A stretch of 64,000 nucleotides of DNA from Bacteroidales bacterium (GTDB lineage: Bacteria; Bacteroidota; Bacteroidia; Bacteroidales; M50B96), in NCBI GenBank assembly GCA_021740905.1, contig JAIOYV010000034.1, forward strand, positions 1 through 64,000, given 5' to 3'. Position numbers and translations under genes: made by a program. Shown here one piece after another: positions 4,753 to 42,428 of this stretch. Each line of letters opens with the position of its first letter. Within the stretch, counting starts at the first letter, position 1. The notes under the pieces are model-generated. The model had not been told where the DNA came from and ran no database searches. It saw nothing but the letters and a program-made list of their open reading frames with translations.

Positions 4753-4757
4753 CGTAA

Positions 4758-21784: not shown

Positions 21785-23107
21785 CTACTTCGTCTCTTTC
21801 TTTTTGTCCGAATCAAGCATAAAATTAATTGGGACCGTGTAGGCTACTTTTACAGCTTTCCCTTTTTGCTTACCAGGCGTAAAATCGGTTAACGATGAAA
21901 CTACGCGTAAAGCTTCCTCGGTGAGCTCTGGTGCTGCACATGTAACCATTTTGTTGTCTTTGTTGGGCTTAATGGCCTTTGTCTTAGCTTCCTTTACACT
22001 TACAACTTTGCCTTTTTCGTCGACAACAAACTGTACATATACTTTCCCCTGAATCCCTTCCTTTCTCGAATTCTCGGGATACTTCACGTTGCTCGCAATG
22101 AATTTTTTCAAGCCTTCATCTCCTCCATTTAAAAATACCGGCATTTCTTCCACAACTGTATATGGCTCAGATTCGCTTGCCTTCTTTATAGTGTCCTGTA
22201 CTATTTCTGGATTGATTTCATTGATAATGGTAAAAGATGTTCCTTTAGTATTATTGGTAAAAGCCATTAGAAGGATGGCAACCACAGGGATCGTAATCAA
22301 CATTCGTAACGAGGCCCATTTCGTAGATTTTTCTTTTTTCATCATGATTAAGCGTTTTTTTAAAAGTGATTGATTAAAACTATTTACTATTGAATTATAG
22401 GGTATGCCGGTTGTTTGTGCGAATAATATTTGTTGATAATGAAAACGGTCGCTCCCATTTCGAAGGACCTGCTGGTCTGCTTGGTATTCGTGAATGTGTT
22501 GGATGCTTTTTTTATACATCCACACAAAAGGGTTAAACCATTGAAAGATGCTAACACATTCAATCAATAGGATGTCGAACGAATGGTATTGGCTTATGTG
22601 GGCTTTCTCGTGTTGGATAACCTCGTTGATGTGCTCCGTGTCTTTGTCGTTTGTGGCAATAAAAATCAGGTTGAAAAAGGAGAAAGGGGCAATGTCTCTA
22701 TCTGTAAAAACCACTTTTACACCATCGTGATATGTAATGCTATTTTTGATCACCAAGAATCCCAATTGGCCAATGCGCCAAAAAAAACGGGAAAGAAAAA
22801 AGGCAAAGCCGGCAAAATATACTGCCTGGATAATTCCCCACAAAAAGTTTTCTGAAGACATAGCGCGTCCAACAGGTTCTTCAACAATGGTGATAGTTTC
22901 CAAAAAAACCTGGCCAACCGGATTGCCTGAACTCCATGAGTAATTCATTTTAATTTCAGGAATAATTATACTGAACAATACAGACAATAGAAGGAAGGTT
23001 CGGTTCATTGCAAAATGATTGTGCTTCTGCAAAAACAACAGGTAGGCAAAGTAAAATATGCCCAGGCTTATAAAGGATTTCAACAAATAAATAATAAGTG
23101 CATCCAT
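21785..23107 (-). CDS. M56 family (BlaR1-like) membrane metallopeptidase with TonB C-terminal domain
   Basis: A 440-residue protein. Four hydrophobic helices surround a zinc peptidase domain with HEKAH and the downstream HEYQAD (about residues 185-240); a fourth helix (ITIPVVAILLMAFTNN) leads to a periplasmic TonB_C domain (KVYVQFVVDEKGKVVSV.., ending KVAYTVPINFML). Proteins of this kind sense an envelope signal and inactivate a BlaI-type repressor. In Bacteroidota the penicillin-sensor domain of BlaR1 is replaced by TonB_C, and the ligand is generally unknown. It lies five bases after the repressor gene, and no beta-lactamase is nearby. Confidence 0.88.
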   Translation of the reverse strand: MDALIIYLLKSFISLGIFYFAYLLFLQKHNHFAMNRTFLLLSVLFSIIIPEIKMNYSWSSGNPVGQVFLETITIVEEPVGRAMSSENFLWGIIQAVYFAGFAFFLSRFFWRIGQLGFLVIKNSITYHDGVKVVFTDRDIAPFSFFNLIFIATNDKDTEHINEVIQHEKAHISQYHSFDILLIECVSIFQWFNPFVWMYKKSIQHIHEYQADQQVLRNGSDRFHYQQILFAQTTGIPYNSIVNSFNQSLLKKRLIMMKKEKSTKWASLRMLITIPVVAILLMAFTNNTKGTSFTIINEINPEIVQDTIKKASESEPYTVVEEMPVFLNGGDEGLKKFIASNVKYPENSRKEGIQGKVYVQFVVDEKGKVVSVKEAKTKAIKPNKDNKMVTCAAPELTEEALRVVSSLTDFTPGKQKGKAVKVAYTVPINFMLDSDKKKETK

Positions 23108-25161: not shown

Positions 25162-26208
25162 CTACAAGGTTGCCATCTCGTCGTTATCGAAATTCCTTCG
25201 GTAATAGTTCATGTACTCCACTTTTCTTTCCAACGAATCGATAACAGCATGGTTGAAGTTTACCTTTTCGAACGTTTGTGCACTTCCTAAACCACCCGGA
25301 CTAAACACATTGATTTCCATTAATTTGTCGCCCACAATATCAAGCCCAACCAAAAACATCCCGTCCTGGACCAATTTGGGGCGTACTATTTCAGCCAATC
25401 TTAGGTGTTCCTCCGTAATAACTGCCTGTGCCAGTTTTCCACCTGCATGGATATTACTTCGCATATCGTCGCCTTTTCGTAGCCTGCGAAAGGCAGCATA
25501 TTTGCCTTTGTAGCGCATCGGTTGGCCATTCATCATGAAAAGCCGGATATCACCATCGATTGCTGCCGGCAGATATTCCTGGCCTATAATGTAACCATCG
25601 CGAAGCAAAGATTCGACAATTTGATTCAAGTTCGCCCTATCATCCGGTTTGACAAGAAACACGCCTGACCCTCCTGAACCCTGTAATGGTTTAAGTACGA
25701 TATTCCCTCCGTGTTCCTCGGCAAATTGTTTGATCTCTTTTGTATCGCGGGTAATTATTGTTTTTGGCCTAACCTCTTCGGGGAAAAGTTGAAAATAGGT
25801 TTTGTTTACGGCTTTCGACAGGCCATTGGGATCGTTTAAAACAATTACACCATGGCGCATGGCAATACGTCCGAAGTTGATTCCAGCCACCTGTGCCCAT
25901 GATCTTGTCCCTGTTTCGTTGGCCGGGTCGCTGCGTAACAACAGCACATCCAGATCATCAACAGTAATCCTTTCCTTTAGGGCATTTTTTCCTTGAAGGG
26001 TATTCAGATATATTTCGTTCGACTTATATTGTTTTTTGGGGACTGACCGGGCGCGGGCACGGATACTCTCATCTGCATCATAAGCCAGGTCGCCCAGCCC
26101 CATTATCCAAACTTCATGACCACGGTTTATGGCAGACACTGCTAATCGTGTGGTGGTGTAACCTGATTGCTCTGTGTTGATATCATTTACAACTATTCCT
26201 AATCTCAT
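25162..26208 (-). CDS. GshB-like ATP-grasp ligase
   Basis: A 348-residue member of the glutathione synthetase/RimK ATP-grasp group, which joins a carboxylate to an amine at the cost of ATP. ATP-grasp elements seen are NIVLKPLQGSGGSGVFLV (about residues 170-187), YIIGQEYLPAAIDGDIRLF and the Mg-binding LMEINVFSPGGLGS. No gshA or GshF is in the window, so true glutathione synthesis cannot be assumed. It is the third gene of an operon whose first two genes are an N-formylglutamate amidohydrolase-like enzyme and a QEGLA peptidase. Its ATG overlaps the TAA of the peptidase gene by one base. A role in making a small amide-linked product is an inference. Confidence 0.8.
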   Translation of the reverse strand: MRLGIVVNDINTEQSGYTTTRLAVSAINRGHEVWIMGLGDLAYDADESIRARARSVPKKQYKSNEIYLNTLQGKNALKERITVDDLDVLLLRSDPANETGTRSWAQVAGINFGRIAMRHGVIVLNDPNGLSKAVNKTYFQLFPEEVRPKTIITRDTKEIKQFAEEHGGNIVLKPLQGSGGSGVFLVKPDDRANLNQIVESLLRDGYIIGQEYLPAAIDGDIRLFMMNGQPMRYKGKYAAFRRLRKGDDMRSNIHAGGKLAQAVITEEHLRLAEIVRPKLVQDGMFLVGLDIVGDKLMEINVFSPGGLGSAQTFEKVNFNHAVIDSLERKVEYMNYYRRNFDNDEMATL

Positions 26209-28112
26209 TATGTTTTCCTTTTTATTAAATTTATAAGCGTAAGACCATTTCTCAGGTCTTTCAATTTTTCAACGGTTTGTGGGGTATCAAAGTAGCTTGG
26301 CCTCAACGGGGCGGGGTGTAATACTTTGCGCCATTGAAGCTCTTTTACAATTGGGATATGGTCGGCTGAAATTTTGCCTACAAACAAAGGCTCCAATTCA
26401 CCTCCCTTCTTTATATATTCTAAAAGCTGTACCAAACCCCGCAAATATACAGCATCTTTTGTTAATCCACCACTGCGGAATGTCCGCATGGCTATATAGA
26501 AAGCGGTGTAGCGTTCAAAGCCGTGTACATTATTCAGTTCACGAAACACATCGATAAATGTGGCCCCATTGATCATGTTGCGGGCGGCCACTACACGGGC
26601 GGCCAATAAGCGCATCCTGGGTTGGGTCAATCCATCTACCATGTATTCGGACAGAACTGCAAGGCCCTCCTGCAACTCTTCATATCCGGCCAGACCCACA
26701 TATAATTGTCTAAGGGGTTGAGCCTTGCCATTGATGTGGGTCAAAACATGCGTTCCTACTTCATGCTGGATCAGGGCCTCGATTCGGGCAGTAGGGATTT
26801 TTAAGTGTGACCCGATGAGCACGTTTCCATGTGATACCATCAAGCCCGAAATATCGTCACGAACCACCACTTTATTTCGGATTTCGGGAACCGTTTTTTT
26901 AAACCAGGCTATCTCTTGATTGGCCCTTGCCGCAAAAGCTTTCGCATCGACTGAAAAGCCTGTGGCCTCTTCCCTGCTGCGGGGCGATAGTTGCTGCAAT
27001 AGTTCAAGCGACATATCCATCAAAGAGTCTTCGATGCCACCAAACAGTTGAAGGCTGCCGTACATAAAGGAGCGTGTTCCCCGGTCGATGAGCATGGTGA
27101 ACTTGCGGTCCAGTTCCAGTTGTTGCCCCCTGAAAAGCTGGGCCAAGGTTGGATCTTCAATTTTTTCGATGGGCACCTGAAAAAGCCGCCGCTTGGACAG
27201 GGCCGGGTCTACAACCAACGGACGGTAGGTAAATTGCGGTGCAACCTCAAATTTATTTCGTTGAAAGGCTGCCCATGCTGCCTTGCTGTTGGTAGGTGTG
27301 ACCTGCAAAAGAAAATCGAATTCGTTGCATATATTCGCCAATTGGCGGTCGATCTCCCAAACGGCCTTTACCATACTCCTGCGACCCAGACTCTGGTAAT
27401 GAAGCGGGCGATAAGGTGTGTGGACAAGCGTAAATTCGAAGAAACAATTTTTTAAGGCTTTGGCAAATCTCCGTTGCAGATCGCGGCGAAGGAGAGGGAA
27501 AATTTGCTTTGTCTCAGCATCGCGATAGATGGGGCGGACCTCGATCCCTATGATGTGACAACCCAGCTCTTTTGCTTCGGCCATCGAAAGCACGGGAGAC
27601 AAACCCGATGGCGATATTTTAGTGGCTTCCACTATTTCAACTTTTGCTGCTTCCCTGCGGATTTTTACCTCCCTCAATGCACCCGCAAGGGTTTCGATAG
27701 TTGAATTTATGGCCGTTTTCTTTGGCTTGAAAATGGTAAAGGCCGGTTTGTAAGTGGGCATTTCGCTGTATTGGCCATCATCCTGAGTTAGCCAGACTTC
27801 CAATATCAGGAACGACCCAAAACTTTTTTTTAAGGTTTGGGCGATTCGTTTTACCAGCACAGAAATTTGTTTTTGTTGATTTCGGTTCCCGGTGGCAATC
27901 AGGTACGATGCTTCGCCAATGATAAGCCGTTCGGATAGTGAGTCATCGTTTGTGACCCGCTGGCGATAGATGCAAAGGAAGGGCAGTTGCCTGTCGATGT
28001 GCAAACGTCCCCACAGGGGAAGTGTTCGGCGAACCTGCTTGTTTTCTGCCAATCGCTCACAAATCGTGTCGATAAAGCTATCCGTGATTGGGCTAATTTG
28101 TTTTTTTACCAT
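26208..28112 (-). CDS. DUF1704 / QEGLA-motif putative metallopeptidase (MATCAP-related family)
   Basis: A 634-residue protein annotated in databases as 'flavohemoglobin expression-modulating QEGLA motif protein'. The central region carries HEVGTH (an HExxxH zinc motif) followed about 30 residues on by LQEGLA, whose Glu would be the third ligand. The same motif pair defines the eukaryotic tubulin tyrosine carboxypeptidases MATCAP1/2, which belong to this family, so metallopeptidase activity is a fair inference. The first 300 or so residues form a separate domain (RDAETKQIFPLLRRDLQRRF..). It overlaps the amidohydrolase gene by 7 bases and the ATP-grasp gene by one, so the three proteins are probably made in fixed proportion. 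Confidence 0.85.
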   Translation of the reverse strand: MVKKQISPITDSFIDTICERLAENKQVRRTLPLWGRLHIDRQLPFLCIYRQRVTNDDSLSERLIIGEASYLIATGNRNQQKQISVLVKRIAQTLKKSFGSFLILEVWLTQDDGQYSEMPTYKPAFTIFKPKKTAINSTIETLAGALREVKIRREAAKVEIVEATKISPSGLSPVLSMAEAKELGCHIIGIEVRPIYRDAETKQIFPLLRRDLQRRFAKALKNCFFEFTLVHTPYRPLHYQSLGRRSMVKAVWEIDRQLANICNEFDFLLQVTPTNSKAAWAAFQRNKFEVAPQFTYRPLVVDPALSKRRLFQVPIEKIEDPTLAQLFRGQQLELDRKFTMLIDRGTRSFMYGSLQLFGGIEDSLMDMSLELLQQLSPRSREEATGFSVDAKAFAARANQEIAWFKKTVPEIRNKVVVRDDISGLMVSHGNVLIGSHLKIPTARIEALIQHEVGTHVLTHINGKAQPLRQLYVGLAGYEELQEGLAVLSEYMVDGLTQPRMRLLAARVVAARNMINGATFIDVFRELNNVHGFERYTAFYIAMRTFRSGGLTKDAVYLRGLVQLLEYIKKGGELEPLFVGKISADHIPIVKELQWRKVLHPAPLRPSYFDTPQTVEKLKDLRNGLTLINLIKRKT

Positions 28113-28906
28113 TTCGCCCCTAGCTGTTTTAATTCTTCCAGCACTCCTTTTACAGTGGATTGAAGTGCCATGTCGATTTTTTTAATCTGATCCTGATCCG
28201 GAATTCCGGTCCATTCGTCCATAAAGAATTTTTTAAATTCAACCGATAAACAGCAAGCTGATTCCTGGAAGTTCTGGTGGATCCATCTTCCAAATTGCCC
28301 GCCCTTGAATTTTATGTTTTCACGCACATCGAGTTTTCGTGAGTCATAATCGTAGTTACCGAGGTCGGACATAAAGCGATCAACGAGGGGTGCCCATTTT
28401 TCCCGGTCCATGGTCCCTGTTCCTATGTTTACTTCGGGGTTTAATTCTGCGTCGGCAGGCGGGCCATCGGGCGACTCGCGCCGATAGCAATACGAATGTA
28501 GGTCGAACACCACAAAACGGCCATATCTTTTTTCCAGGTCAGAAAATAGTTTGTGGGCTTCCGCATAAAAGGCATCATATTCAGCCAGCGAACGATCAAT
28601 AATTTCGGCAGGAAGGTCAGATTTCCACACGTTCAAACCCCAGGCATCTTCAGGCAAAATATACACAGCTTTTTCGCGGGGCCGGTTCAAATCGACCTCG
28701 AATCGAGAGTGGGTTGCAATAATCCGCGTATTTCCCATGCTCGTCCAGATTCCTGTAAAAGGATCCTCCTCTTGTAGCTGACCGGTATCGCTCAGTGCAA
28801 TCAGGACTGCCACTTCGGGCCGTAGCCTATGCCCATCGTGGATGGCTGTGGCTACCAGAGGCCCATTGCCAAGGTGTGTTTCCCAAATTTTATTTTGATC
28901 GTTCAT
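28106..28906 (-). CDS. N-formylglutamate amidohydrolase-family protein
   Basis: A 266-residue protein of the FGase (HutG2) zinc-dependent amidohydrolase superfamily. VATAIHDGHRLRP near the N-terminus, SRFEVDLNRPREKAVY (about residues 66-81) and FVVFDLHSYCYRR are the conserved blocks with metal-binding His and Asp. FGases cleave N-formylglutamate in histidine breakdown, but no hut gene is here. Linked instead to a QEGLA peptidase and an ATP-grasp ligase, it may act on another acylated amino acid or on a product of that ligase. It is the first gene of the operon. Confidence 0.83.
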   Translation of the reverse strand: MNDQNKIWETHLGNGPLVATAIHDGHRLRPEVAVLIALSDTGQLQEEDPFTGIWTSMGNTRIIATHSRFEVDLNRPREKAVYILPEDAWGLNVWKSDLPAEIIDRSLAEYDAFYAEAHKLFSDLEKRYGRFVVFDLHSYCYRRESPDGPPADAELNPEVNIGTGTMDREKWAPLVDRFMSDLGNYDYDSRKLDVRENIKFKGGQFGRWIHQNFQESACCLSVEFKKFFMDEWTGIPDQDQIKKIDMALQSTVKGVLEELKQLGAKW

Positions 28907-29272: not shown

Positions 29273-32200
29273 ATGGCGAAGTCCAACAAATTCGGCGCAT
29301 TCAAGGGAGTATTCACCCCTTCCATTCTGACCATCCTGGGTGTAATAATGTACATGCGTCTGCCTATGATAGTGGGAGAATCGGGATTGTTTGCCACTTT
29401 GGGGATAATAGTAGTGGCACACATCATATCCATTACAACAGGCTTAAGTGTCTCGTCTATTGCCACTGATAAAAAAGTGGAGGCGGGAGGCACTTATTTC
29501 ATCATTTCTCGAAGTTTGGGCTTGCCCATTGGTGGAACGCTTGGTCTGGCTTTGTTTGTGGGCTTGTCGTTTAGTGTTAGTCTTTACCTGATTGGTTTTG
29601 CCGAAAGTTTCCTCAGCTATTGGGGCTTTGGAATGGACATTAATTCGATTCGGATTGCCGGAAGTGCCATTCTGTTGCTGGTCACCATCCTTACCTTTAT
29701 AAGTACCTCGCTGGCTTTGAAAACCCAGTATTTTATTATGGCCGCCATATTCTTATCGTTGATTTCCATTTTCTTTGGCAAGCATGATTATGTGCCCGAA
29801 TTGCCCAATCTAACCGGAACTGGCACAGGGGTTTCTTTGATGGTTTTGTTTGGGATATTTTTTCCGGCAGTAACAGGTTTCGAGGCGGGGGTTTCGATGT
29901 CGGGCGATTTGAAAGACCCGAAGAAATCAATTCCCGTTGGTACACTCTCAGCTGTACTGGTAGGTTTGGTGGCCTATATTTTCCTTGCCTTTTTCTTTTC
30001 TTATTCGGTGGATGGTAATTTGCTGAAAGACGACCCACAAGCTTTATTGAAAATTTCGTGGATACCTGAGCTTGTTATTGCTGGTATTTGGGGTGCTACT
30101 TTGTCCTCTGCATTAGGAAGCATACTTGGAGCACCCCGTATTTTGCAGGCCACTGCCCTGGACAAGATAACCCCAAAAATATTTGCCAAAGGCGTAGGCC
30201 CGGCCAACGAACCCCGAAACGCCCTCATCCTTTCGTTTCTGATTGCCGAAGCCGGCATCCTGATTGGCGACCTGGACATTATTGCCCGGATTGTTTCCAT
30301 CTTTTTCATTACGACCTACGGGTTCCTGAATTTGAGCAGTGCTTTCGAAGCCATGACCAGTGCCGATTTCAGGCCCTCCTTCAAAACTCCGATATGGGCT
30401 AGCCTGGTTGGTTCTGCAGCCTGTTTCCTGGTGATGATCCAGCTCGACTTTGTGGCCATGCTGGGGGCTACCGTAATTTTAGGCTTGCTGTTTTTATACT
30501 TGAAACGAAAAGAATTGAGCCTTCAAACCGGTGATACGTGGGGCAGCATCTGGGCCTCGATGGTGAAATATGGGATTGCCAAACTCAGCAAAACTGCCTT
30601 TCACCACCGCAACTGGAGGCCCAACATTATTATGTTCTGTGGACAGGACAACGAAAGACCCGGACTCATAAAATTGGGCAACGATATAGTCGGGAAATTA
30701 GGCATGCTTTCGGGCTTCGAAATTGAACTGACCGATGATACAAGTCTGCGAAAATCAGTTTTTCAAACACGCTTACAATCTACAGGGAACGAAACCACTA
30801 TCCGAAAATACAGCAGCCAGTCTTTGTACGAGGGTATGGACGACATTACCCGTTTGTACGGTATTGGCGGCTTTGAACCGAATACGGTGTTTATTGGCTG
30901 GAGCAAGAATCCCAAAAACCAGGCGGCTTTTCAGGAATTTGCAAAAAACCTGAACCACAATAATTTCAATTCAATCTTTTTCAGATACAATGAAGCACGG
31001 GCTTTGGGGAACAACAAAACCATCGATATTTGGTGGAGCGGACAGGGGCGAAACCTTAGTTTTGCCATTGGCCTTATTCGACACCTTACCGCGTCGGCTA
31101 CGTGGAAAAATGCTAAGGTTCGGTTATTGGTGATAGCCCAGGATGCCAACCAAATAGAGAGGGCATATAAATCGCTCCACACCATTGTTGAAGATTACCG
31201 GGTAACTATGGAGATTGAAATCATCAATAATTCCTTCGAAAAACTGGACGAGAAAACCATTATAGCCGACCGCTCGCAGCAAACCGACCTGGCTATACTT
31301 TGTGTGCCGGAAAGGAAAATCAAAAACTTCGAGAAACATTATGATGAGTACAATTCACTAACCCAACAATTAGGATCGAGTCTGTTGATTAGTGGTTCGA
31401 CCCATTTCGAGGAGTACAACCTGTTCCCCGTAAAAACACAACTGGTGATGAAACCTGAGGCCGGAAGTATGGCCCTGCCCGATTTGGCCCAATCACAATT
31501 CACTCAAATTGCAGAAATCACGGCGAAAGTTGATGCCTACCAACAGGAATCTGCCAATAAATTATTTATAGGTTCGTTCCAACCTATTTATATCGAAAGC
31601 ATAGGCTTTGTGGACGACATCAAACGATTGATCGGCGCAAATAACACGGCCCTCCAAAAAATACTCTGGTATAGCGATAAACCGAAACAATCGAAAGTGC
31701 TGAAAAAAGCGAGAAATGATTTCTATTTCAAATTGAAAAAATTGATTGAATCCTTTTTGAAAGAGAAGCTTACGGTGCAGCGCGAATTGTTAGGCTCGGG
31801 CTTGTCATCTTTTCAGGTATCCAACATCGAATACTTAAAAGACACACCATCGAAAATAAGACTTGTCCTTAACCGGAAAGAATTCCTTTCAAAAGAAATA
31901 TCCAAAGAGAAAATATACAAACTTATATTGCGCTCGCGATTGACAAAGCCATTTTTGGGCAAAGATCAGTTTCAGGTAAAAATTAGCTATCGCGATTTGG
32001 CTTCCTATTTTATGCACGATCAGAAACAAGTCCATCTCGCCGATGATTTGCAAAAGATTCAGAAGTATTACATTACATTCCTTGGCGAAATAAAGGGGAT
32101 AATCCTGGAAGAAGAAGTTCAATTCGAAAGCATCAGCAAAAAAATTAGCGACAAAACTTTAGAGAAATCCAACCTGGATGAAATTTATGCCCAGGCAAAA

Positions 32201-34375
32201 AACATGGTTGGCGAACTAAAAACATACATCGAAAAAGAACAAAAACAACTCTACCAAATTTTAAAAGGAAATGCCCGCAACGGCGCGAACAAGTTGGTGC
32301 AGGCAATTGACAGCCTTGATCCTCAATCGGAAATAAACCAAAACAACAGAGGCCGGAAATACTATAAAAACCTACTCGAAGCCAACGAGAATTTTGCCTC
32401 ACAATGTTTTGATGCCTGCCAATATTTTACCAACCGGCTGTACCTCGAAATACTTCTGAACACCTACAAAAACAGGGTGAAAGAAAACATGGAACTTTTT
32501 TCCGCCTCACTTATCCAGAAAATAAATTCGGGCTTGCTCTCAAGAATAAAACAAATTCAGAAAAGCATATCGGACAATAAGGAGGATGCGAAAGCCTTGC
32601 TGTTGATAGGTGTTGATTTTGAAATGGAGTGGGACACAAGTTTCGATGAATTCTACGAAACCCTGCGCACGAAAACAATCGAGCTTTCGGAGAACCTGCC
32701 TGAAAATATCACCATTGCACAAAACATTGGAACGGTTGGCGAAACGGTAAATCAAACGGAAAGCCTTTCCCTTATCGAAGTGCCGGCAATGCAAATGTCG
32801 CACTACCTAACAGAGCTACGATTGTTAAGCCCGGTGAAGGAGGAGCTGGAAAAAATAGCGACTAAGCTCAACACCCAATATTATCACCTGAAAGACCTTA
32901 CAAGCTACCTGCATTTCGAAATTGAAAACATCGACCGGGAAGCACTCGACAGAAACGAGCTTATTAAGCAGATTGTGACAGAAACACAACAAGAACTGAA
33001 CGATGAGATTGTTGCAATTGAAAAAATCCAAAAGGAACTTTCGATATATACCCTTAAGCAATCCGAACAAGTATTTTCAGCCTTGTCGATCCATAAGATA
33101 AAAGACAGCAGCGAAGAATTGTCGCACCTTATCCGCGAAGTGCAAAGCCGTAAAAGTGTAGGGCGTTTGGCAATACTTCGTGATAAGTTTGTTGTCGGCT
33201 ATCAAAAACTTTTGGTGCAAGTACTTTATACAAAAAGCGAGGGGATATTGCTGGCCAACGAATTGTCGGAGCAAACACAAAAGCAAAGTATACATGAACA
33301 GATCCTGAATTTTGTTGAAAAGAAAAGCCCTAAACCCGCAGTATTTCATAAAATACCGAATTATTATAAAAGCCTGTTCAGTGGAAAATCAAGCATTAGC
33401 CATGAGTTTTGGATTGAACGTCCCATCGAGGAAAACCAATTCGCGAAAGCCTTGGTACGCTACAATGATATTAAGCGGGGCGGGATTATGGTGATAGGCG
33501 AACGCAATTCGGGCAAGACCGCTTTGTGTCGTTACCTGGCCGGAAAGCATTTCGAGGCGGCAAAAAACGTCCATGTCCATGCCCCTGTAAACGGTTCGGT
33601 AAAAACCGAAGACTTTCTAATGGCTTTGAAGGAAGCGACCAAACTACAGGGCAACGCACACGAAATTATCGACAAGCTGCCCCATAATATCATCCTCGTT
33701 ATCCACGACCTCGAACTTTGGTGGGAAAGGACCCGGGAGGGCGGGCAGGTTATCGCACTCATCCTTGAATTGATAAAACAGTTTGGGCATAAAACCTTCT
33801 TCGTTGTCAATCTAAATAATCATGCCCACGCCTTTCTGGGCAAGCTGTTTAAGTTGGAAAACTATTTTTTCAGTTCCATTTATTGCCGCCCCTTCGATGC
33901 CGAAGAGATAAAGGATTTAATACTGACCAGGCATCGCAGCAGTGGCCTAAGATTTAATCTTCGGAAAAAGGAAGAGCAGCAATTATCGAAGGTAAAACAG
34001 GCAAGTCTGTTCAATAAATATTTCAAAGTATCGAAAGGGAACCCCGGACAGGCCCTTCAAACATGGTTAACCAGTGTTCAAGTTTTTGCAAACAACATGC
34101 TTACGATAAGCGAACCGGTTGAACCCAACCACGCCGTGCTGGAAAACCTCCCCGACGAATGGTCCATAGTGCTTGCCCAGATACTGATCCACAAACGGGT
34201 CGATAGTGGCAAGCTATCGCGTATTACAGGCATGTCGCCCGAAAGCATGGACGATTTGCTGACCACGCTCCTTATGTCGGGCTTGCTGACCGACCGGGGT
34301 AACAATGTGTTTATGATCAACTATTATGTGAATAAGGAAGTCAGCAAAGTATTAACAAACAAAGAAATCATTTAA
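29273..34375 (+). CDS. SLC12-like cation-chloride cotransporter fused to a coiled-coil and P-loop ATPase
   Basis: A 1700-residue fusion. Residues 1-430 are an APC/SLC12-type transporter with about 12 helices (GVFTPSILTILGVIMYMRL, VSSIATDKKVEAGGTYFII). Residues about 430-770 match the cytoplasmic SLC12 C-domain (NWRPNIIMFCGQDNERPG). Residues about 780-1370 are long charged helices likely to form coiled coils. Then a nucleotidase domain follows: Walker A GERNSGKT (1409-1416) and a Walker B-like ILVIHDLE (1474-1481), and a C-terminal winged-helix-like tail (SGKLSRITGMSPESMDDLL). SLC12 proteins move Cl- with Na+ and/or K+ and set cell volume in animals; bacterial members are little studied and normally have no ATPase. 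An MscS-like gene follows ten bases later. I infer an ATP-sensing or AAA/STAND-type gate on the transporter; energy coupling is not shown. Confidence 0.85.
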   Translation: MAKSNKFGAFKGVFTPSILTILGVIMYMRLPMIVGESGLFATLGIIVVAHIISITTGLSVSSIATDKKVEAGGTYFIISRSLGLPIGGTLGLALFVGLSFSVSLYLIGFAESFLSYWGFGMDINSIRIAGSAILLLVTILTFISTSLALKTQYFIMAAIFLSLISIFFGKHDYVPELPNLTGTGTGVSLMVLFGIFFPAVTGFEAGVSMSGDLKDPKKSIPVGTLSAVLVGLVAYIFLAFFFSYSVDGNLLKDDPQALLKISWIPELVIAGIWGATLSSALGSILGAPRILQATALDKITPKIFAKGVGPANEPRNALILSFLIAEAGILIGDLDIIARIVSIFFITTYGFLNLSSAFEAMTSADFRPSFKTPIWASLVGSAACFLVMIQLDFVAMLGATVILGLLFLYLKRKELSLQTGDTWGSIWASMVKYGIAKLSKTAFHHRNWRPNIIMFCGQDNERPGLIKLGNDIVGKLGMLSGFEIELTDDTSLRKSVFQTRLQSTGNETTIRKYSSQSLYEGMDDITRLYGIGGFEPNTVFIGWSKNPKNQAAFQEFAKNLNHNNFNSIFFRYNEARALGNNKTIDIWWSGQGRNLSFAIGLIRHLTASATWKNAKVRLLVIAQDANQIERAYKSLHTIVEDYRVTMEIEIINNSFEKLDEKTIIADRSQQTDLAILCVPERKIKNFEKHYDEYNSLTQQLGSSLLISGSTHFEEYNLFPVKTQLVMKPEAGSMALPDLAQSQFTQIAEITAKVDAYQQESANKLFIGSFQPIYIESIGFVDDIKRLIGANNTALQKILWYSDKPKQSKVLKKARNDFYFKLKKLIESFLKEKLTVQRELLGSGLSSFQVSNIEYLKDTPSKIRLVLNRKEFLSKEISKEKIYKLILRSRLTKPFLGKDQFQVKISYRDLASYFMHDQKQVHLADDLQKIQKYYITFLGEIKGIILEEEVQFESISKKISDKTLEKSNLDEIYAQAKNMVGELKTYIEKEQKQLYQILKGNARNGANKLVQAIDSLDPQSEINQNNRGRKYYKNLLEANENFASQCFDACQYFTNRLYLEILLNTYKNRVKENMELFSASLIQKINSGLLSRIKQIQKSISDNKEDAKALLLIGVDFEMEWDTSFDEFYETLRTKTIELSENLPENITIAQNIGTVGETVNQTESLSLIEVPAMQMSHYLTELRLLSPVKEELEKIATKLNTQYYHLKDLTSYLHFEIENIDREALDRNELIKQIVTETQQELNDEIVAIEKIQKELSIYTLKQSEQVFSALSIHKIKDSSEELSHLIREVQSRKSVGRLAILRDKFVVGYQKLLVQVLYTKSEGILLANELSEQTQKQSIHEQILNFVEKKSPKPAVFHKIPNYYKSLFSGKSSISHEFWIERPIEENQFAKALVRYNDIKRGGIMVIGERNSGKTALCRYLAGKHFEAAKNVHVHAPVNGSVKTEDFLMALKEATKLQGNAHEIIDKLPHNIILVIHDLELWWERTREGGQVIALILELIKQFGHKTFFVVNLNNHAHAFLGKLFKLENYFFSSIYCRPFDAEEIKDLILTRHRSSGLRFNLRKKEEQQLSKVKQASLFNKYFKVSKGNPGQALQTWLTSVQVFANNMLTISEPVEPNHAVLENLPDEWSIVLAQILIHKRVDSGKLSRITGMSPESMDDLLTTLLMSGLLTDRGNNVFMINYYVNKEVSKVLTNKEII

Positions 34376-34385
34376 TATTCGAGAT

Positions 34386-35087
34386 ATGAGAATCCTGATT
34401 GCACTTGTCGTTGTAATTGTATCGGCAATCCTGATCAATTCCTTTAAGCTTGCCCTTAACAAATTGCTTTTGAGGTATAAGTTGGCAAAAAGGGTGTACA
34501 AAGTACTGCCCATTGTGGAACTGATATTTTGGATGGCCCTGATGTTTTGGATCGTCAATTTTTTGTTCGAAGAATATACATTTTACAATCTCCTGGTGGC
34601 CTCGCTCATGTTTGTGGCCATCCTGTTTGTTTCGTGGTACTACATCCGGAATTTCATTGCAGGGATATTTTTCCGGCTTCAAAATAAATTTATCATCGGC
34701 GACATCATCCAGTTTGCCGAAATCACCGGAAACATTAAAAAGTTAACCTCAAGTCACCTGGTTATTGAAGCCAAAGAAGGCCAGGTAATGCGCATCCCCT
34801 ATTCCAAACTGAGCAACGAAATTATTTCGGAGCACACCGATCTGAATACCTTCCAGGAATCGAAAATCACACTAAAACCAAACCTTAGCCTTGGAAAAGA
34901 TCAAACAAAGGAAGCCATCGTTTCCAGCATTTTGCTGTCGCCCTGGCAAAAGCTAAACCGTAAACCCAACGTAAAATTTATTGCAGAAGAGGAAAACCAC
35001 TATGTTTTTGAGGTGAATGTAAGCACCAAAAACGAAAAGCATTTGGGCTATTTGATTAGTGCTTTAAAAAAGGAGTTTGAAAAATAG
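34386..35087 (+). CDS. Small-conductance mechanosensitive channel (MscS-like)
   Basis: A 233-residue membrane protein. Three helices (about residues 2-18, 40-60, 65-85) are followed by the MscS beta-domain: FIIGDIIQFAEITGNIKKLT and GQVMRIPYSKLSNEII match the conserved core, and an alpha/beta tail completes the cage. MscS channels release solutes on hypo-osmotic shock. It starts ten bases after the transporter-ATPase fusion and is surely cotranscribed, linking ion uptake and emergency release in one unit. Confidence 0.85.
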   Translation: MRILIALVVVIVSAILINSFKLALNKLLLRYKLAKRVYKVLPIVELIFWMALMFWIVNFLFEEYTFYNLLVASLMFVAILFVSWYYIRNFIAGIFFRLQNKFIIGDIIQFAEITGNIKKLTSSHLVIEAKEGQVMRIPYSKLSNEIISEHTDLNTFQESKITLKPNLSLGKDQTKEAIVSSILLSPWQKLNRKPNVKFIAEEENHYVFEVNVSTKNEKHLGYLISALKKEFEK

Positions 35088-35274: not shown

Positions 35275-37131
35275 ATGAAAAAGATTTACATTTTATTGAT
35301 CTCAATTATTTTTGCGACAATTTCTACCTATTCGCAAACAACGATCTACAGTTTCGATTTCGAGAACTACACAGCCGGTATCGGGATTGCATCACAGGCT
35401 GGTACCCCATGGACTACCTGGAGCGGCACTACTGGTGGGTCTGAAGATCCTGTCGTTTCTACCGACTTTGCAGCAAGCGGTATAAATTCTGTAAAGTGTG
35501 TCACCAACAACGACCTGGTGCTTGACCTTGCCGACCTTACTACAGGAAGGTATCAGATTACATTCGATATTTTTGTGAAAACCGGCAAGGTTGCTTACCT
35601 AAACCTACTGCAGGATTTTGCCGCATCGAACAGTGAATGGGCAACCCAAACGTATTTTAATGTAAATGGCACAGGAACAGTGGATGCCAATGGTGAATCG
35701 ACGGGCACCTTTACTTTCACCCACGAGACCTGGGTCAATATAAATTATATTATTGACCTGGACGATGATTTTGCTACCTTGTACATCGATGGCGTTGAGA
35801 TTGTGAGCTGGAAGTGGAGTTTAGGGTCATTTGGAAGTGGTACGATGGTGAAACTGGATGCCGTTAATTTTTATGGTTGGACAGATGATTTAGGCAATGG
35901 TTCACAGTTTTATATCGACGACGTAAGCGTGATACAGCAACTATCACTCGATGGGCCAAGCAACCTTGCTGCAGTTGTTACGGCCAACGATATTGCACTC
36001 GACTGGACTGCCCCCGTAACAACCCCCGACAGCTATATCTTGTCGAGAAACGGGAGTATTGTTGCCACAGGCATCGCCACGCTTACCTATAGCCAACCCG
36101 ATATGTACCCAAATACATACGATTATGTGGTTCGTGGCCATTATAGTGGACTAGGATATTCTTCATCGTCGAACACAGCAACAGCAGTAGTTACAGGTGG
36201 TGTTGACCGTGATTTGGTGCTTTTCGAAATCAGTACTGGTACGTGGTGCGGGTATTGTCCGGGAGCTGCCATGGGTGCCGACGACCTCGAAGCCGCCAGC
36301 TACAATGTAGCCATAATTGAATACCACAATGGTGACCCTTATGCCACCACCGATTGCGGAATCCGCGAAAACTACTACAGTATAAACAGTTGGCCAACAA
36401 CAGTTGTAGATGGAATTGCAGGATTTTCGGGCGGGAACGCCACCACAAGCCTTTTCCCCGATTACGAGTATTTGTACAACGATCGAAAAGATGTCCCCTC
36501 GGTCCATTTGGTCGATCTGCAAGTTACGTATATCGATAGCACCAATTACGTAGCCTCAATTACCGTTGAGCAATCGAACCCTTATTTTTCTGATGGATTG
36601 GTGCTACGAGCTGCATTGACCGAATCGCACATACCAGAAGTCTGGGGTGGATTGACGGAAGTGAATTTTGTTTGTCTCCAGATGTACCCCGATGCTTATG
36701 GCACACCCATTAATTTCGCTTCCAGCACAACCTACTCCACCACCATTAATTTCGCATTAGGTAATGCTGTTACCGAAAATTGCGAATTTATTGTCTTCCT
36801 CCAACACGATCCCTCAAAAGAAGTGATCCAGACTGCCCGTTTCCATTTTTCAACAGTCGGGATAGGAAAGGCCCTCGCCGAAAATTACATCAACGTTTAC
36901 CCCAACCCCAGCCATGGAGAATTTAACTTAGACATTACCACGCCCAAGACCAAATCGTTCGACATTTCGATTATGAACCTGGCCGGGCAGGTTGTTGAGC
37001 AATTTCAAATTGAGCAGGTCAACATCATCAGTAAAAACATTGATTTGAGTAAATATGACTCAGGTTTTTATTTTATTCGGATTGGCGATGGAACTGATAC
37101 TGTAATGAAAAAGATACAAGTGATCAAATAG
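35275..37131 (+). CDS. T9SS-exported Omp28-like thioredoxin-fold surface protein
   Basis: A 618-residue protein with a signal peptide (residues 1-20), a jelly-roll/LamG-like domain (about 24-220; YIDGVEIVSWKW, FYIDDVSVI), a fibronectin type III domain (about 224-305; PSNLAAVVTANDIALDWTAP), an Omp28-type domain (about 308-530) with an exposed thioredoxin-like WCGYCPGA, and a C-terminal T9SS type A sorting domain (INVYPNPSHGEFNL..). The CxxC suggests redox or disulfide chemistry at the cell surface, but Omp28 proteins have no firmly assigned reaction. It is transcribed alone and closed by a strong terminator. Confidence 0.85.
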   Translation: MKKIYILLISIIFATISTYSQTTIYSFDFENYTAGIGIASQAGTPWTTWSGTTGGSEDPVVSTDFAASGINSVKCVTNNDLVLDLADLTTGRYQITFDIFVKTGKVAYLNLLQDFAASNSEWATQTYFNVNGTGTVDANGESTGTFTFTHETWVNINYIIDLDDDFATLYIDGVEIVSWKWSLGSFGSGTMVKLDAVNFYGWTDDLGNGSQFYIDDVSVIQQLSLDGPSNLAAVVTANDIALDWTAPVTTPDSYILSRNGSIVATGIATLTYSQPDMYPNTYDYVVRGHYSGLGYSSSSNTATAVVTGGVDRDLVLFEISTGTWCGYCPGAAMGADDLEAASYNVAIIEYHNGDPYATTDCGIRENYYSINSWPTTVVDGIAGFSGGNATTSLFPDYEYLYNDRKDVPSVHLVDLQVTYIDSTNYVASITVEQSNPYFSDGLVLRAALTESHIPEVWGGLTEVNFVCLQMYPDAYGTPINFASSTTYSTTINFALGNAVTENCEFIVFLQHDPSKEVIQTARFHFSTVGIGKALAENYINVYPNPSHGEFNLDITTPKTKSFDISIMNLAGQVVEQFQIEQVNIISKNIDLSKYDSGFYFIRIGDGTDTVMKKIQVIK

Positions 37132-38043: not shown

Positions 38044-41000
38044 CTATATCCACCTCACAAAATTAAAATCCTGGCGGTGGGGTATGCAGTCGCAGGTAGG
38101 GAACATGCGGATCCCATAGTTTGTGATGCCTGCCTTTTGCACCTGAAACTCGATTTCGTAGAATGTCAAACTGTTCTCTGTATGTGTTTGCTTGAACAGT
38201 TGTGTCTTTGAGACTTTCACCTTTTGGTTGCTGTCCAGTTCGGCAAACACGATTTCCAGGCTGATGTCCTTGGCATCCATTTCAGGAAGTCGCAATACAA
38301 CCTGTATTTTATTTTTCGCGCCAAGCTCTAGTGTCCCGGTGCCCATGGATGGGAATTGTGTTTCAACAACTTCAATTTTATCCCAGTTGCGCGCCACTTT
38401 CTTTTTCCATTGGGCAAGGGTTTGTACGCTTTGGTAATAATTTTTCCGCAGCTCGTTGGTGCGATTAAACAGTTTTCCGTAGAAACCAGCCTGGTAATCT
38501 TCGATCATCCGTTTCATCGTAAACTTGGGTGCCACATGGGCAATCGAATTCTTGATATAACCTATCCATTTTTCGGGAATATTGTTGCTGTTCCGGTTGT
38601 AGAAAAGGGGCTGAACCTCCTGTTCGAGGATGTTGTAAATCAATTCAGCATCAAGCTGATTCTGCAAGTGCTGATCGTCGTATGTTTTTTCCATGGGTAA
38701 TGCCCAACCGGCTTTATCTTCGTAGCCTTCTACCCACCAGCCATCGAGGACCGAGAAGTGGAGGCCGCCGTTCATCACGGCTTTCATGCCACTGGTACCG
38801 GAAGCTTCGAGGGGGCGGGTTGGGGTGTTCATCCAAATATCAACGCCCTGCACCAGTTTTTTGGCCAGTTCGATATCATAGTTTTCGAGGAAAAGGATTT
38901 TGCCAAGGAACTGGGGCATGCGCGAGATTTCTACAATATCTTTTATCAAATCCTGTCCCGGTTTGTCGTTAGGGTGGGCTTTTCCGGCAAAAAGGAACAA
39001 CACTGGTTTATCGGGGTTATTCACAATGGAAGCTAGCCGATCGATATTATTGAAAAGAAGTTTTGCTCGTTTATAGGTGGCAAACCTTCGGGCAAAGCCG
39101 ATTACCAACGTGTTTTCGTTCAGCAATTTTAAAACGCCCATCATTTTGTGCGGGTCTTCGTGACGGCGGATCCAGTTTTTTTCGACCCTATGTTTTATAT
39201 AATCGATGAGGATTTTTCGCTGTGCCTGTCGGATTTTCCAAATTTTTTCGTCGGGTACCTGATAGATTTTTTCCCATCGGTCTAAGTCGATTTGGTTGTG
39301 GATGAAATCATCGCCCAGATGCTGGTTGTACAATTTCTGCCATGCCTTGGCTGTCCACGAAGGATAATGCACCCCGTTGGTGACATACGAAATGTGCAGC
39401 TCGTTGGGGTAATATCCTGGGTACATGGGGTTGAACATCTCCTTCGAAACCTCACCGTGCAACCAACTCACCCCGTTTACTTCCTGCGAGAGGTTCAGGG
39501 CCAGGTGGCTCATAGAAAAGTTTTCGTTACGGTCGGGCACATTGATTTTTCCGAGAGCCAGGAATTCAACCCATGAAATATTTAAACGCTTTGGATAGTG
39601 TGACATATAAGTCCGTACCAAATCTTCATTGAACGTATCGTGACCGGCAGGCACAGGCGTGTGTGTTGTAAACAAGGTAGATGCCCTGACGATTTCGAGC
39701 GATTCGGCAAAAGTGAAATTCTTTTTGCTGATCAAGTTGTTCAAACGCTCAAGCCCGATAAAGGCAGCATGTCCCTCGTTGCAGTGGTATAAATCGGGGC
39801 TGGCCCCAATTGCATTTAAGGCACGGATTCCCCCAACCCCGATTATCATTTCCTGTTTAAAACGGTGTTCGTTGTCGCCGCCATAAAGCTGGTAGGTGAT
39901 GGCGCGGTCGGCTTCGCTGTTTTCATCAATATCGGTATCCAATAAATACAATTTGATGCGCCCCACATTCAATTGCCATATTTTCGCGTACACTGAACGA
40001 CCGGGTAGGTAAACCGAGATTTTCATCCCATTTCCTTCCTTGTCTAAAACAGGTTGCATTGGTAAATGCAAAAACTTTTGGCGTTCGTAAGTGGCAATTT
40101 GTTCGCCATGTATGGTAATTACCTGCTTAAAATAACCCTGGCGGTATAACAAGCCCACCCCGATCATGTTTACATTCGAGTCGCTGGCTTCTTTCAAATA
40201 ATCGCCGGCAAGGATGCCCAGGCCTCCTGAGAAAATTTTCACCGAATCGTGAAAGCCATACTCCATACTGAAATAGGCAAGCGATTTACCCTCTTCATCA
40301 AGAGGTTCGGCCATATAATCCCTGAATTTACCGATTACCTCCTGGTAGTTTTCAACAAAATTCTTATCGGTTTCGAGTTCTGAAAACCGTTCAAAGGACA
40401 TTAATTCCAACAAGGCAATCGGGTTATAGCGGCTTTCGCGCCAAAGGGCCGGATCCATGTATTCGAACAGGTCGACAGCCTCGTAATTCCACGACCACCA
40501 AAGGTTTTTCGATAGCTCGGTCAATCCCGAAAGACTTTTGGGAACAATGGCTTGCACCATCGCTTTACGCCAAACAGGTTGATCGGTCCCTTTGGGTTTG
40601 ATCCTTCCCTGTTCCGGTTCGATAGGTTTTAGCTCGGCAATCTTATCCTGGCGGTCGTCGAGTTTTTTAAGGGCAATCCGATAAGCATCGAAATATTTCC
40701 CAATCATATTTTCCCAACGAAGGAGACGCGAAATTTCAAAAGCAGAATTTCTGGCCGACTTTATCTCCGATTCCGTTTTCGTACTAAAACTGGCAATAAT
40801 CGCTGCAATTTGCCCTACGACTACTTCATTTGTACTATTCATCCGTTCAACAATGTAAATCCCATTGTTGCTGACATTTTCGCTTGCCAAAATCCAGCGA
40901 CCAATCCCGGTGAGAGATGTGGTTACAGTTGGGATTGAAAATGCAATACTTTCCAGTGCAGTGTATCCCCAGGGTTCGTAATACGAGGGGAAAACAGTTA

Positions 41001-42291
41001 AGTCGAAGCCAATCAGGAGATCGAAATAGGTCATATTGAAAACACCATCGTTCCCATCAAGAAAAGCAGGGACAAATACGACTTTCAACTTCGAACCCTT
41101 TTCATTTTTTAAGTCAAGCGAATTCACCTTCCTCATTATAGGATCGAAATCCTGGTCGTGAAGCCCATGGGAGAGTATCCTATCTTGTGGATCAAAGTTG
41201 CTGTCCTTGTTTTGCAATTTTTCGACTAGCTCTTTGCGGGCACCGTAGTTATTGGCTGGTACCATGATGAATGCGATAATGTCTTTGGCCTGTTTTTCGG
41301 ACTTGTCGACTTGGGCAATGGCATCGATAAAAACATCGGTGCCCTTGTTTTCAAACTCGTAGTGCCCACTGTGCAGGATCAACAAAGTATCGTCGCTAAA
41401 TTTTTGTCCGCATAAAGCTCCGGCCACTTCAAACAACTTTTTTCGAGCCGTGTCCCGCTTCTTTTGAAAGTTATTTTCATCGGGCAAAAAATTATCCTCA
41501 AACCCGTCGGGTGTAATTACATCTACTTCTTTTTCCAGGAAATGAGCACATTCGATACCCGACAAACTACTGGCGGTTGTAAACGAATCGGCAATGTTCG
41601 AAGATATTTTTTCGATGGATTGCTTTGAGACCACCTTGTATTTTTGGGCTACCTCGGTGGGTTTATAGTTTTCGATAGCATCGTAAAACCGCTCGCCCTT
41701 GTCGGCCAAGGCATGTCCTAAAACCGTAGAATGTGCGGTAAAGGTTGTGGCCACGTTCGGTACAAAATTCTTTAAATACAGGATGCCGGCCCCCGTGTTC
41801 CACTCGTGAAAATGGGCCACGATGGCAGTGCGGAGATTAAAATGGAAACGGCTAAAACTTTCGATCACTTTTCCGGTGGCATAGCCAAATAAAACCGGCT
41901 CGATATAGTCCCACTGCCCCGAAATGGAGTCGAGTTTGTTGCTATCCCAGAGGTCGGCAAAAATACTGTCCTTTTGGCTAAAAAAGGTAGTAAAGTCGAC
42001 CAGGATGACGAGGGGCTTGCCAGGGATGTTCCACCGGCCCACGCGCACATGGAGGCCTTCGGCGGTGGCCTTGTTTCGCCAGATGCTAAATATTTTGTTG
42101 TCTTCGATAAATTCGCTGTGGTCGTTCGATTCGCGGTATACATCGGGGCCAATCAAAATGAGGTTGTCCTCGTACTCTTTCACCAGTGTTTTTGCTTTGG
42201 TCGAAACCACCGTGTGGATCCCGCTTATCTTGTTGCACACCTCCCAGCTCACCTCGAACAGGGCATGTGGCTTTTCAATATTGTTTATCAT
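38044..42291 (-). CDS. Fused glycogen synthase (GT3-like) and alpha-glucan phosphorylase (GT35)
   Basis: A 1415-residue protein from ATG 42291 (a TTG lies upstream at 42321). The first 550 or so residues match eukaryote-like GT3 glycogen synthase: HALFEVSWEVCNKISGIHTV at the N-terminus, FTAHSTVLGHAL, and FPSYYEPWGYTALESIAFSI in the donor site. After a linker comes a DUF3417 segment (SLSGLTELSKNLWWSWN) and a GT35 phosphorylase: YFSMEYGFHDSVKIFSGGLG, VTNGVHYPSW, and EASGTSGMKAVMNGGLH, which holds the PLP lysine. Building and breaking alpha-1,4-glucan are thus on one chain. Such long proteins are known among Bacteroidota. GH57, GT4 and debranching genes follow upstream on the same strand. Confidence 0.9.
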   Translation of the reverse strand: MINNIEKPHALFEVSWEVCNKISGIHTVVSTKAKTLVKEYEDNLILIGPDVYRESNDHSEFIEDNKIFSIWRNKATAEGLHVRVGRWNIPGKPLVILVDFTTFFSQKDSIFADLWDSNKLDSISGQWDYIEPVLFGYATGKVIESFSRFHFNLRTAIVAHFHEWNTGAGILYLKNFVPNVATTFTAHSTVLGHALADKGERFYDAIENYKPTEVAQKYKVVSKQSIEKISSNIADSFTTASSLSGIECAHFLEKEVDVITPDGFEDNFLPDENNFQKKRDTARKKLFEVAGALCGQKFSDDTLLILHSGHYEFENKGTDVFIDAIAQVDKSEKQAKDIIAFIMVPANNYGARKELVEKLQNKDSNFDPQDRILSHGLHDQDFDPIMRKVNSLDLKNEKGSKLKVVFVPAFLDGNDGVFNMTYFDLLIGFDLTVFPSYYEPWGYTALESIAFSIPTVTTSLTGIGRWILASENVSNNGIYIVERMNSTNEVVVGQIAAIIASFSTKTESEIKSARNSAFEISRLLRWENMIGKYFDAYRIALKKLDDRQDKIAELKPIEPEQGRIKPKGTDQPVWRKAMVQAIVPKSLSGLTELSKNLWWSWNYEAVDLFEYMDPALWRESRYNPIALLELMSFERFSELETDKNFVENYQEVIGKFRDYMAEPLDEEGKSLAYFSMEYGFHDSVKIFSGGLGILAGDYLKEASDSNVNMIGVGLLYRQGYFKQVITIHGEQIATYERQKFLHLPMQPVLDKEGNGMKISVYLPGRSVYAKIWQLNVGRIKLYLLDTDIDENSEADRAITYQLYGGDNEHRFKQEMIIGVGGIRALNAIGASPDLYHCNEGHAAFIGLERLNNLISKKNFTFAESLEIVRASTLFTTHTPVPAGHDTFNEDLVRTYMSHYPKRLNISWVEFLALGKINVPDRNENFSMSHLALNLSQEVNGVSWLHGEVSKEMFNPMYPGYYPNELHISYVTNGVHYPSWTAKAWQKLYNQHLGDDFIHNQIDLDRWEKIYQVPDEKIWKIRQAQRKILIDYIKHRVEKNWIRRHEDPHKMMGVLKLLNENTLVIGFARRFATYKRAKLLFNNIDRLASIVNNPDKPVLFLFAGKAHPNDKPGQDLIKDIVEISRMPQFLGKILFLENYDIELAKKLVQGVDIWMNTPTRPLEASGTSGMKAVMNGGLHFSVLDGWWVEGYEDKAGWALPMEKTYDDQHLQNQLDAELIYNILEQEVQPLFYNRNSNNIPEKWIGYIKNSIAHVAPKFTMKRMIEDYQAGFYGKLFNRTNELRKNYYQSVQTLAQWKKKVARNWDKIEVVETQFPSMGTGTLELGAKNKIQVVLRLPEMDAKDISLEIVFAELDSNQKVKVSKTQLFKQTHTENSLTFYEIEFQVQKAGITNYGIRMFPTCDCIPHRQDFNFVRWI

Positions 42292-42428
42292 TGTCGTTCT
42301 ATTTAATTCTGTAATCAACACAGGAACAAAGCATTTGTTCCGATGAAATTTTTTATTTTGGTTCGCAAATTTGCAATATTATTTCCACAAAAAAAGGCGT
42401 GAAACCAGGAATTTTCAAACCCTCTCGC

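Follow-up and report, generated by a model that had tools for sequence, protein, structure and literature searches.

The window analysed here is the whole 64,000-nucleotide stretch at positions 1 to 64,000 (forward strand) of contig JAIOYV010000034.1, from the Bacteroidales bacterium assembly GCA_021740905.1. Near its middle lies a two-gene locus in which a transporter of the SLC12 family, a long helical region, an AAA+ domain and a winged helix are read as one protein of 1700 residues, followed by a small gene for a protein with the fold of the mechanosensitive channel MscS (Table 1). The fusion and its MscS neighbour are real and conserved beyond chance. A first-pass annotation of this DNA had proposed the single frame, the SLC12 transporter with its cytoplasmic domain, a helical linker, two P-loop motifs, a winged-helix-like tail and an MscS-like gene ten bases downstream, and all of these were recovered: the open reading frame is present and has almost full-length homologues elsewhere, the Pfam models for both transporter domains and for MscS score above their cut-offs, the structure model has helices of up to about 75 residues between aa ~744 and ~1318, the motifs lie exactly where they had been placed, and the tail is seen in the predicted structure inside a match to ORC2.

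Table 1. Features of the SLC12 fusion gene and its partner, in window coordinates.
Feature	Position	Strand	Basis
SLC12 - helical region - AAA+ - winged-helix fusion gene, 1700 aa	29273..34375	+	single open reading frame, ATG to stop
SLC12/APC transmembrane domain, aa 13-451	29309..30625	+	Pfam AA_permease; NKCC1 alignment
SLC12 C-terminal cytoplasmic domain, aa 452-676	30626..31300	+	PF03522; alignment with KCC and NKCC chains
Helical region, aa 677-1357 (~680 residues)	31301..33343	+	predicted structure; hhalign
AAA+ domain and C-terminal winged helix, aa 1358-1700	33344..34372	+	structure model, structure matches, module alignment
Walker A GERNSGKT, aa 1409-1416	33497..33520	+	Lys1415 conserved
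Non-standard Walker B-like ILVIHDLE, aa 1474-1481	33692..33715	+	module alignment
Winged helix, about aa 1621-1696	34133..34360	+	model secondary structure; within ORC2 match
MscS-fold partner gene, 233 aa	34386..35087	+	PF00924, structure model, Foldseek, TM3 counts

Domain composition

The transporter part matches Pfam AA_permease (PF00324, aa 13-451, E 1e-42) and the SLC12 C-terminal domain (PF03522, E 1.4e-8, 34.7 bits against a cut-off of 27). The solved structures nearest to it are KCC4, KCC2 and other SLC12 members, with aa 254-555 matching 32 SLC12 structures at E <= 1e-10. Aligned to human NKCC1, for which the accessible part of PMC7889885 gives A610, S613 and S614 as Na+-site residues, the window protein has A275, S278 and S279, and across the 91 fused proteins compared these residues are retained in 90, 89 and 89, respectively. 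The K+-site equivalents P198, T201 and Y75 are kept in 91/91, 86/91 and 90/91, and the K+-site Asn of NKCC1 is replaced by Thr in 77/91. Given the NKCC-type Na+ site and mostly kept K+ site, our best guess is an NKCC-like, Na+-coupled cation-chloride cotransporter. A K-Cl cotransporter label was considered and rejected: TIGR00930 was not reached (381.7 bits against a whole-protein cut-off of 953.4), and the Ser-Ser pair in transmembrane helix 8 is NKCC-like, the aligned KCC4 having Gly-Ala there. The genome also carries a plain 745-aa SLC12 relative on another contig.

The tail (aa 677-1700) was modelled from a 79-row alignment with a mean predicted local distance difference test score (pLDDT) of 84.6 and a predicted template modelling score (pTM) of 0.57; an AAA+ fold and a winged helix follow the helices, the relative placement of the domains being uncertain at this pTM. 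By sequence the P-loop domain stays under the Pfam cut-offs (AAA_22, 20.5 bits vs 27), and the best PDB profile matches are Clp-type AAA+ proteins (E 1.9e-4) and winged-helix regulators. Foldseek matched the tail to ORC2, Cdc6, PABY2304, RuvB, TnsC and Apaf-1, and the best VIA-align match, ORC2 1w5t (Z 15.6, 323 residues, rmsd 5.5), covers both the AAA+ domain and the winged helix; the VIA-align search covered mostly model residues 683-1020, and the helical region received no fold assignment. The nSTAND models gave no row for the window protein, its relatives match nSTAND1/3 under cut-off, and NRC3 joins Apaf-1 among the Foldseek rows. Model, structure matches and alignment agree on an AAA+ fold with a Walker A motif, whose Lys1415 is present in 92/92 SLC12-fused modules. 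The canonical Walker B (hhhhDE) is absent: the window reads H1478-D1479-L-E1481, and across the 92 fused modules position 1478 is N or H in 68, D1479 is found in 89 and E1481 in 78.

Distribution and partner gene

Restriction to this one assembly, which would have counted against the first-pass annotation, was checked and does not hold: the fusion occurs in many genomes, and a search across genomes found both its architecture and its MscS neighbour to recur. Among 60 relatives examined, the genome itself included, nine others have a one-frame fusion of 1650-1750 aa (G026, G030, G034, G029, G019, G053, G055, G020 and G006), and G051 has it as two contig-end pieces. Scanning the genomes of named species gave 368 relatives, and the analysis went on with the best 80; all of these match from residue 52 or earlier to residue 1682 or later at 33-56% identity (best segment), and the fusion is a single frame in 78, with loci L164 and L200 reading as two frames. 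Carriers, named from record titles and many of them metagenome-assembled genomes (MAGs), comprise Bacteroidales, Cyclobacteriaceae, Fulvivirga, Thermonema rossianum, Flexithrix dorotheae, Ignavibacterium, Marinimicrobia, Rhodothermia, Calditrichota and Desulfoluna limicola, the last with its locus (L156) on the complete chromosome NZ_AP024488.1.

The window's MscS-like frame (PF00924, E 1.5e-11) begins 10 bases past the fusion stop. In 73 of the 78 one-frame loci the next gene on the same strand matches the MscS-like partner profile, at gaps of -56 to +174 bases (n=73); 40 pairs overlap, and in 26 of them the shared stretch is the four bases usual for an ATGA junction. Both two-frame loci, which are outside the 78, also have an MscS-profile gene next. 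The five loci with no profile-matching next gene are L142, where 583 bases of contig remain past the fusion, L145, L181, L185 and L197. Outside the species scan, 11/12 fused genes have an MscS partner and L028 does not; among these 12, L026 and L105 duplicate scan loci L202 and L166, and L026 gave an opposite-strand MscS match in one neighbour scan, its true partner being identified separately. None of ten plain SLC12 genes has an MscS neighbour in the flanks examined, which were about 1.5 kb (more for L022, less on one side for L012). The window's genome has six PF00924 genes, two of which directly follow its two module genes. A promoter and terminator scan stood at shuffle level (14 found vs 13.8 expected and 5 vs 7.4, respectively) and so provided no operon evidence. 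In L143, from a MAG, a second, canonical MscS gene (5103-5990) lies immediately upstream of the SLC12 fusion.

The module outside SLC12 proteins

An ATPase on a bacterial SLC12 protein had been put forward as without described precedent; the fusion itself stands, but the ATPase is a widespread module that also occurs alone or in another fusion and is not private to SLC12. Its AAA+/winged-helix profile matches 78/394 genomes of a phylum sample, most of the matching proteins being transporter-free and about 930-1150 aa long, and in several bacterial phyla the module is found next to other ion channels and transporters. The N-terminal helical part of these stand-alone forms is homologous to that of the window (hhalign 98.8%, E 7.8e-17, 438 columns). 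An MscS-profile frame adjoins on the same strand, upstream in some lineages, in 64 of the 68 non-SLC12 module places examined out of 78 (G097, G085, G262, G325, G380, G282, G391, G298, G271 and G185 were left out); the four without a partner include L101 (partial, E 4.5e-8) and L122 (contig end). The window's own genome has such a pair (L021), a 1003-aa module with a canonical 332-aa MscS 14 bases downstream. RefSeq records for Novosphingobium pentaromativorans list an 'AAA family ATPase' and then a 'mechanosensitive ion channel family protein', and a Caulobacter plasmid has the same order. Convergent and downstream of the L021 pair (4228-8252, G000:C87) lies a Na+/Ca2+ exchanger gene.

A second set of eight forms measures ~1465-1501 aa (hereafter ~1500 aa). 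The N-terminus is a Na_H_Exchanger domain in five (L075, L077, L078, L079 and L081) and has no Pfam match in L082, L083 and L084; seven of the eight have a helical part homologous to that of the window protein (hhalign 98.2, E 4.2e-14). All three operons tested (L078, L075 and L082) run from the ~1500-aa form to MscS, TrkH and TrkA, and the L078-type operon looks like a complete K+ homeostasis unit. In L078 (1520-10792, minus strand), and likewise in L075 and L082, a 414-aa membrane protein without Pfam match stands ahead of this row, whose first member is an antiporter-module fusion in L078 and L075. In a small group (L086, L095, L097 and L098) the module is shorter and is accompanied by a small membrane protein and by a gene for Na_H_Exchanger; one idea, drawn from a four-protein alignment with no profile match, is that the neighbour in L097 and L098 may be an MscS protein without the beta domain.

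A tree of 158 modules, left unrooted, places the 92 SLC12-fused ones in one clan (support 0.852) and seven of the eight ~1500-aa forms in another (support 0.999), which suggests a single origin of each fusion within this sample. Distances among the partners at 68 loci correlate most with those of the AAA+ domain (r 0.616; value reached in 0/500 permutations), then with those of the helical part (0.519) and of SLC12 (0.477). The partial correlation is 0.443 for AAA+ with SLC12 held constant and 0.006 for SLC12 with AAA+ held constant. Divergence of the MscS partner thus appears to track the AAA+ domain, not SLC12, a mirror-tree result that is suggestive given the large distances and shared ancestry.

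Loss of the pore motif in the partner

The window partner was modelled (pLDDT 92.2) with three predicted transmembrane helices, a beta domain and a C-terminal alpha/beta domain, and the 50 Foldseek matches listed are all MscS-type channels or unnamed membrane proteins aligned with them; with both the PF00924 beta domain and the MscS fold, it belongs to the MscS family. The Gly/Ala-rich, pore-lining third transmembrane helix (TM3) of that family is missing, only 2/20 residues of this stretch being G or A. Counted over the 20 residues preceding the hinge, with partners under 180 aa left out, G+A averages 2.41 in 79 SLC12-linked partners (range 0-8) vs 6.67 in 51 partners of stand-alone modules (range 5-10), and aromatics average 3.59 vs 0.98, respectively; the rank test on G+A (p 2.6e-20) has descriptive value, the sequences being related. 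The G+A average is 2.62 for the partners of the eight ~1500-aa forms and 3.00 for the small group, in which two partners could be counted.

In Fulvivirga, the partners at L129, L131 and L138 have shrunk to 111-116 aa with no hydrophobic stretch, and they match just positions 155-242 of the 244-position profile, that is, the C-terminal domain, which therefore seems to be the partner element retained longest. Taken together, the loss of the pore helix and these soluble remnants leave emergency ion release through the MscS gene, as proposed in the first-pass annotation, unsupported, and for the window partner such a function is unlikely. A Na_H_Exchanger gene lies divergent and immediately upstream of the fusion in Fulvivirga (L129:4584-5864) and Imperialibacter (L145:4615-5880), which are lineages with a shrunken MscS partner.

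Interpretation

In animals, cell volume and neuronal chloride depend centrally on cation-chloride cotransporters; to our knowledge, little is known about the regulation of the prokaryotic ones. We propose, with confidence about evenly poised, that the module is a nucleotide switch that docks on the C-terminal domain of MscS proteins and regulates ion channels or transporters, in this locus the NKCC-like transporter. The gene pair would then encode a regulated ion-uptake complex. Its N-terminal half would be the Na+-coupled, NKCC-like cation-chloride cotransporter, its tail module (helical stalk, ORC/STAND-like AAA+ unit and winged helix) a nucleotide-bound conformational switch, and the small MscS-fold protein a dedicated partner whose C-terminal alpha/beta domain docks on the AAA+ unit. 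The membrane part of the partner, where kept, would be an anchor that may feed in membrane tension, and not an ordinary release valve. In the older form, an AAA+ protein encoded on its own would have regulated a true MscS channel; fusion of its AAA+ unit to SLC12, once, and in another lineage to an antiporter would have come later, after which the switched pathway was the transporter and the channel could decay to a scaffold. A docking role of the MscS cytoplasmic domain has precedent, because that of E. coli MscS binds FtsZ (PMC4440785, accessible part).

An osmotic or ionic role is our best guess, because of the identity of the transporters and because relatives of the module stand in operons with K+ and Na+/H+ transport genes; the cell-volume or turgor module of the first-pass annotation keeps this part and loses its release valve. 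A wider version of the proposal, possible but on balance unlikely, is that the AAA+ stalk module, as an oligomer, binds MscS-fold proteins from below at their C-terminal domain, with nucleotide state and membrane tension together setting the gating of the attached channel or transporter, an undescribed class of ATP-switched ion conductance.

Several points weigh against the switch-and-docking proposal. A complex of heptameric MscS and dimeric SLC12 poses a symmetry problem. No adjacent partner was found in L181, L185, L197 and L028, so it is not strictly needed in cis, and at L145 the partner position is taken by a 123-aa soluble protein with no match to the MscS profile. The SLC12, helical and AAA+ parts co-diverge with one another and distances are saturated, which weakens the mirror-tree result. 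ATP hydrolysis by the AAA+ unit is uncertain because Walker B is atypical, and the Walker A Lys is present in just 33/54 stand-alone modules. In the stand-alone set this Lys is changed to Arg in 12/54 and is otherwise absent in a few, so some of these copies may be unable to hydrolyse or even bind ATP.

The same data bear on other explanations. A turgor module in which SLC12 uptake and a working MscS emergency valve are both under the ATPase would accord with the predicted MscS fold and three transmembrane helices of the partner and with the canonical MscS channels adjoining stand-alone modules, but the SLC12-linked set has lost the small-residue pore motif, with bulky residues in its place, and in Fulvivirga only soluble remnants are left; we regard it as improbable. 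We give similarly little credence to a membrane-tethered DNA-binding or trafficking ATPase with SLC12 serving only to anchor it or, as a transceptor, to sense substrate. DNA binding is common among winged helices, and the closest folds of the modelled tail are ORC/Cdc6, TnsC and NSF D2; the transport-site residues are nevertheless conserved, and stand-alone modules pair with canonical channels. An assembly artefact or chance join of two genes can be practically discounted: apart from the two-frame loci L164 and L200 no support for it was found, all 80 kept loci match almost end to end, and 78 of them, the complete Desulfoluna limicola chromosome included, are in one frame.

Defence or cell suicide, with a STAND-like sensor opening or blocking a membrane effector upon phage attack, would suit an ORC/STAND-like ATPase with a large helical sensor region. 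Two module copies are on plasmids, and the AAA+ region gives weak PADLOC matches, the best being to mad8 (E 2.6e-5 in L078, an antiporter fusion, and E 0.001 in L021, a stand-alone module). Against this, the sole PADLOC match of the window protein is Csa3 (E 0.0023) and falls within its SLC12 part, its C-terminal 891 aa were unmatched in 50,697 phage records and in the plasmids searched, the module's neighbours are TrkH, TrkA and an antiporter, and the SLC12 fusions form one clan, which makes this explanation quite improbable. An ATP-driven pump, in which AAA+ hydrolysis would power ion movement through SLC12 and make a secondary transporter primary, is highly improbable: Walker A is intact in 92/92 fused modules and the AAA+ unit is covalently linked to SLC12, but the complete NKCC-type Na+ site suggests ordinary gradient coupling, Walker B is atypical, and channels, which require no source of power, are also found with this module.

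A literature search, with subscription papers and preprints outside its coverage, found no description of the module, of an SLC12-AAA+ fusion or of an AAA+/MscS pair, and Pfam, NCBIfam and PADLOC scans returned no model describing the module. For prokaryotes, the accessible part of PMC4301019 cites only an isolated archaeal C-terminal domain. Each part of the locus by itself belongs to a known fold class. The ATPase has been built into a cation-chloride cotransporter and joined to further ion pathways, with a decayed mechanosensitive channel as its regular companion. This may point to a mode of ion-balance control that has not been described before, makes a connection of nucleotide state and membrane tension with ion uptake open to direct testing, and names a candidate partner for MscS C-terminal domains.

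Other genes in the window

Immediately downstream of the MscS-like gene, positions 35275-37131 (+) encode a secreted protein that bears a sorting tail for type IX secretion and a stretch resembling Omp28. A 1425-aa fusion of glycogen synthase (PF05693), DUF3417 and phosphorylase (PF00343) at 38044-42321 (-) clusters with GH57 and glycogen debranching genes. Upstream are overlapping genes at 25162-28906 (-) for a glutathione synthetase-like ATP-grasp enzyme, a QEGLA/MATCAP-family protein and an N-formylglutamate amidohydrolase-like protein, and at 21785-23107 (-) a BlaR1-type M56 peptidase fused to a TonB C-terminal domain.

Comparison with known systems

The partner shares its fold and PF00924 with MscS channels, but in the SLC12-linked set it is without their small-residue TM3. 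The docking proposed here resembles the MscS-FtsZ case, as given in the accessible part of PMC4440785, in using the MscS C-terminal region as a protein-docking surface, and differs in that the bound protein is another one and the E. coli channel itself is functional. Like AAA+ ATPases of the ORC/Cdc6 and STAND kinds, the module has an AAA+ core followed by a winged helix (ORC2 1w5t, Z 15.6); unlike them, the window's unit is C-terminal to a long helical stalk on a transporter, and the module's Walker B reads [N/H/E]-[D/N/G]-L-[E/Q] instead of hhhhDE. TrkH/TrkA K+ uptake systems and CPA antiporters are neighbours or fusion partners of the same module, and we know of no AAA+ unit as a component of either. 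With NKCC1, NCC, KCC and the archaeal MaCCC, the window protein shares the transmembrane and C-terminal domains of the SLC12 family and the NKCC-type Na+-site residues, to which it adds a helical and AAA+ tail of ~1000 residues and an MscS-fold partner. Animal SLC12 members are regulated by phosphorylation; if the switch-and-docking proposal is true, the SLC12 branch would be a bacterial counterpart of NKCC/KCC cell-volume control, in which a mechanosensor-derived scaffold and an AAA+ switch would stand in for kinases.

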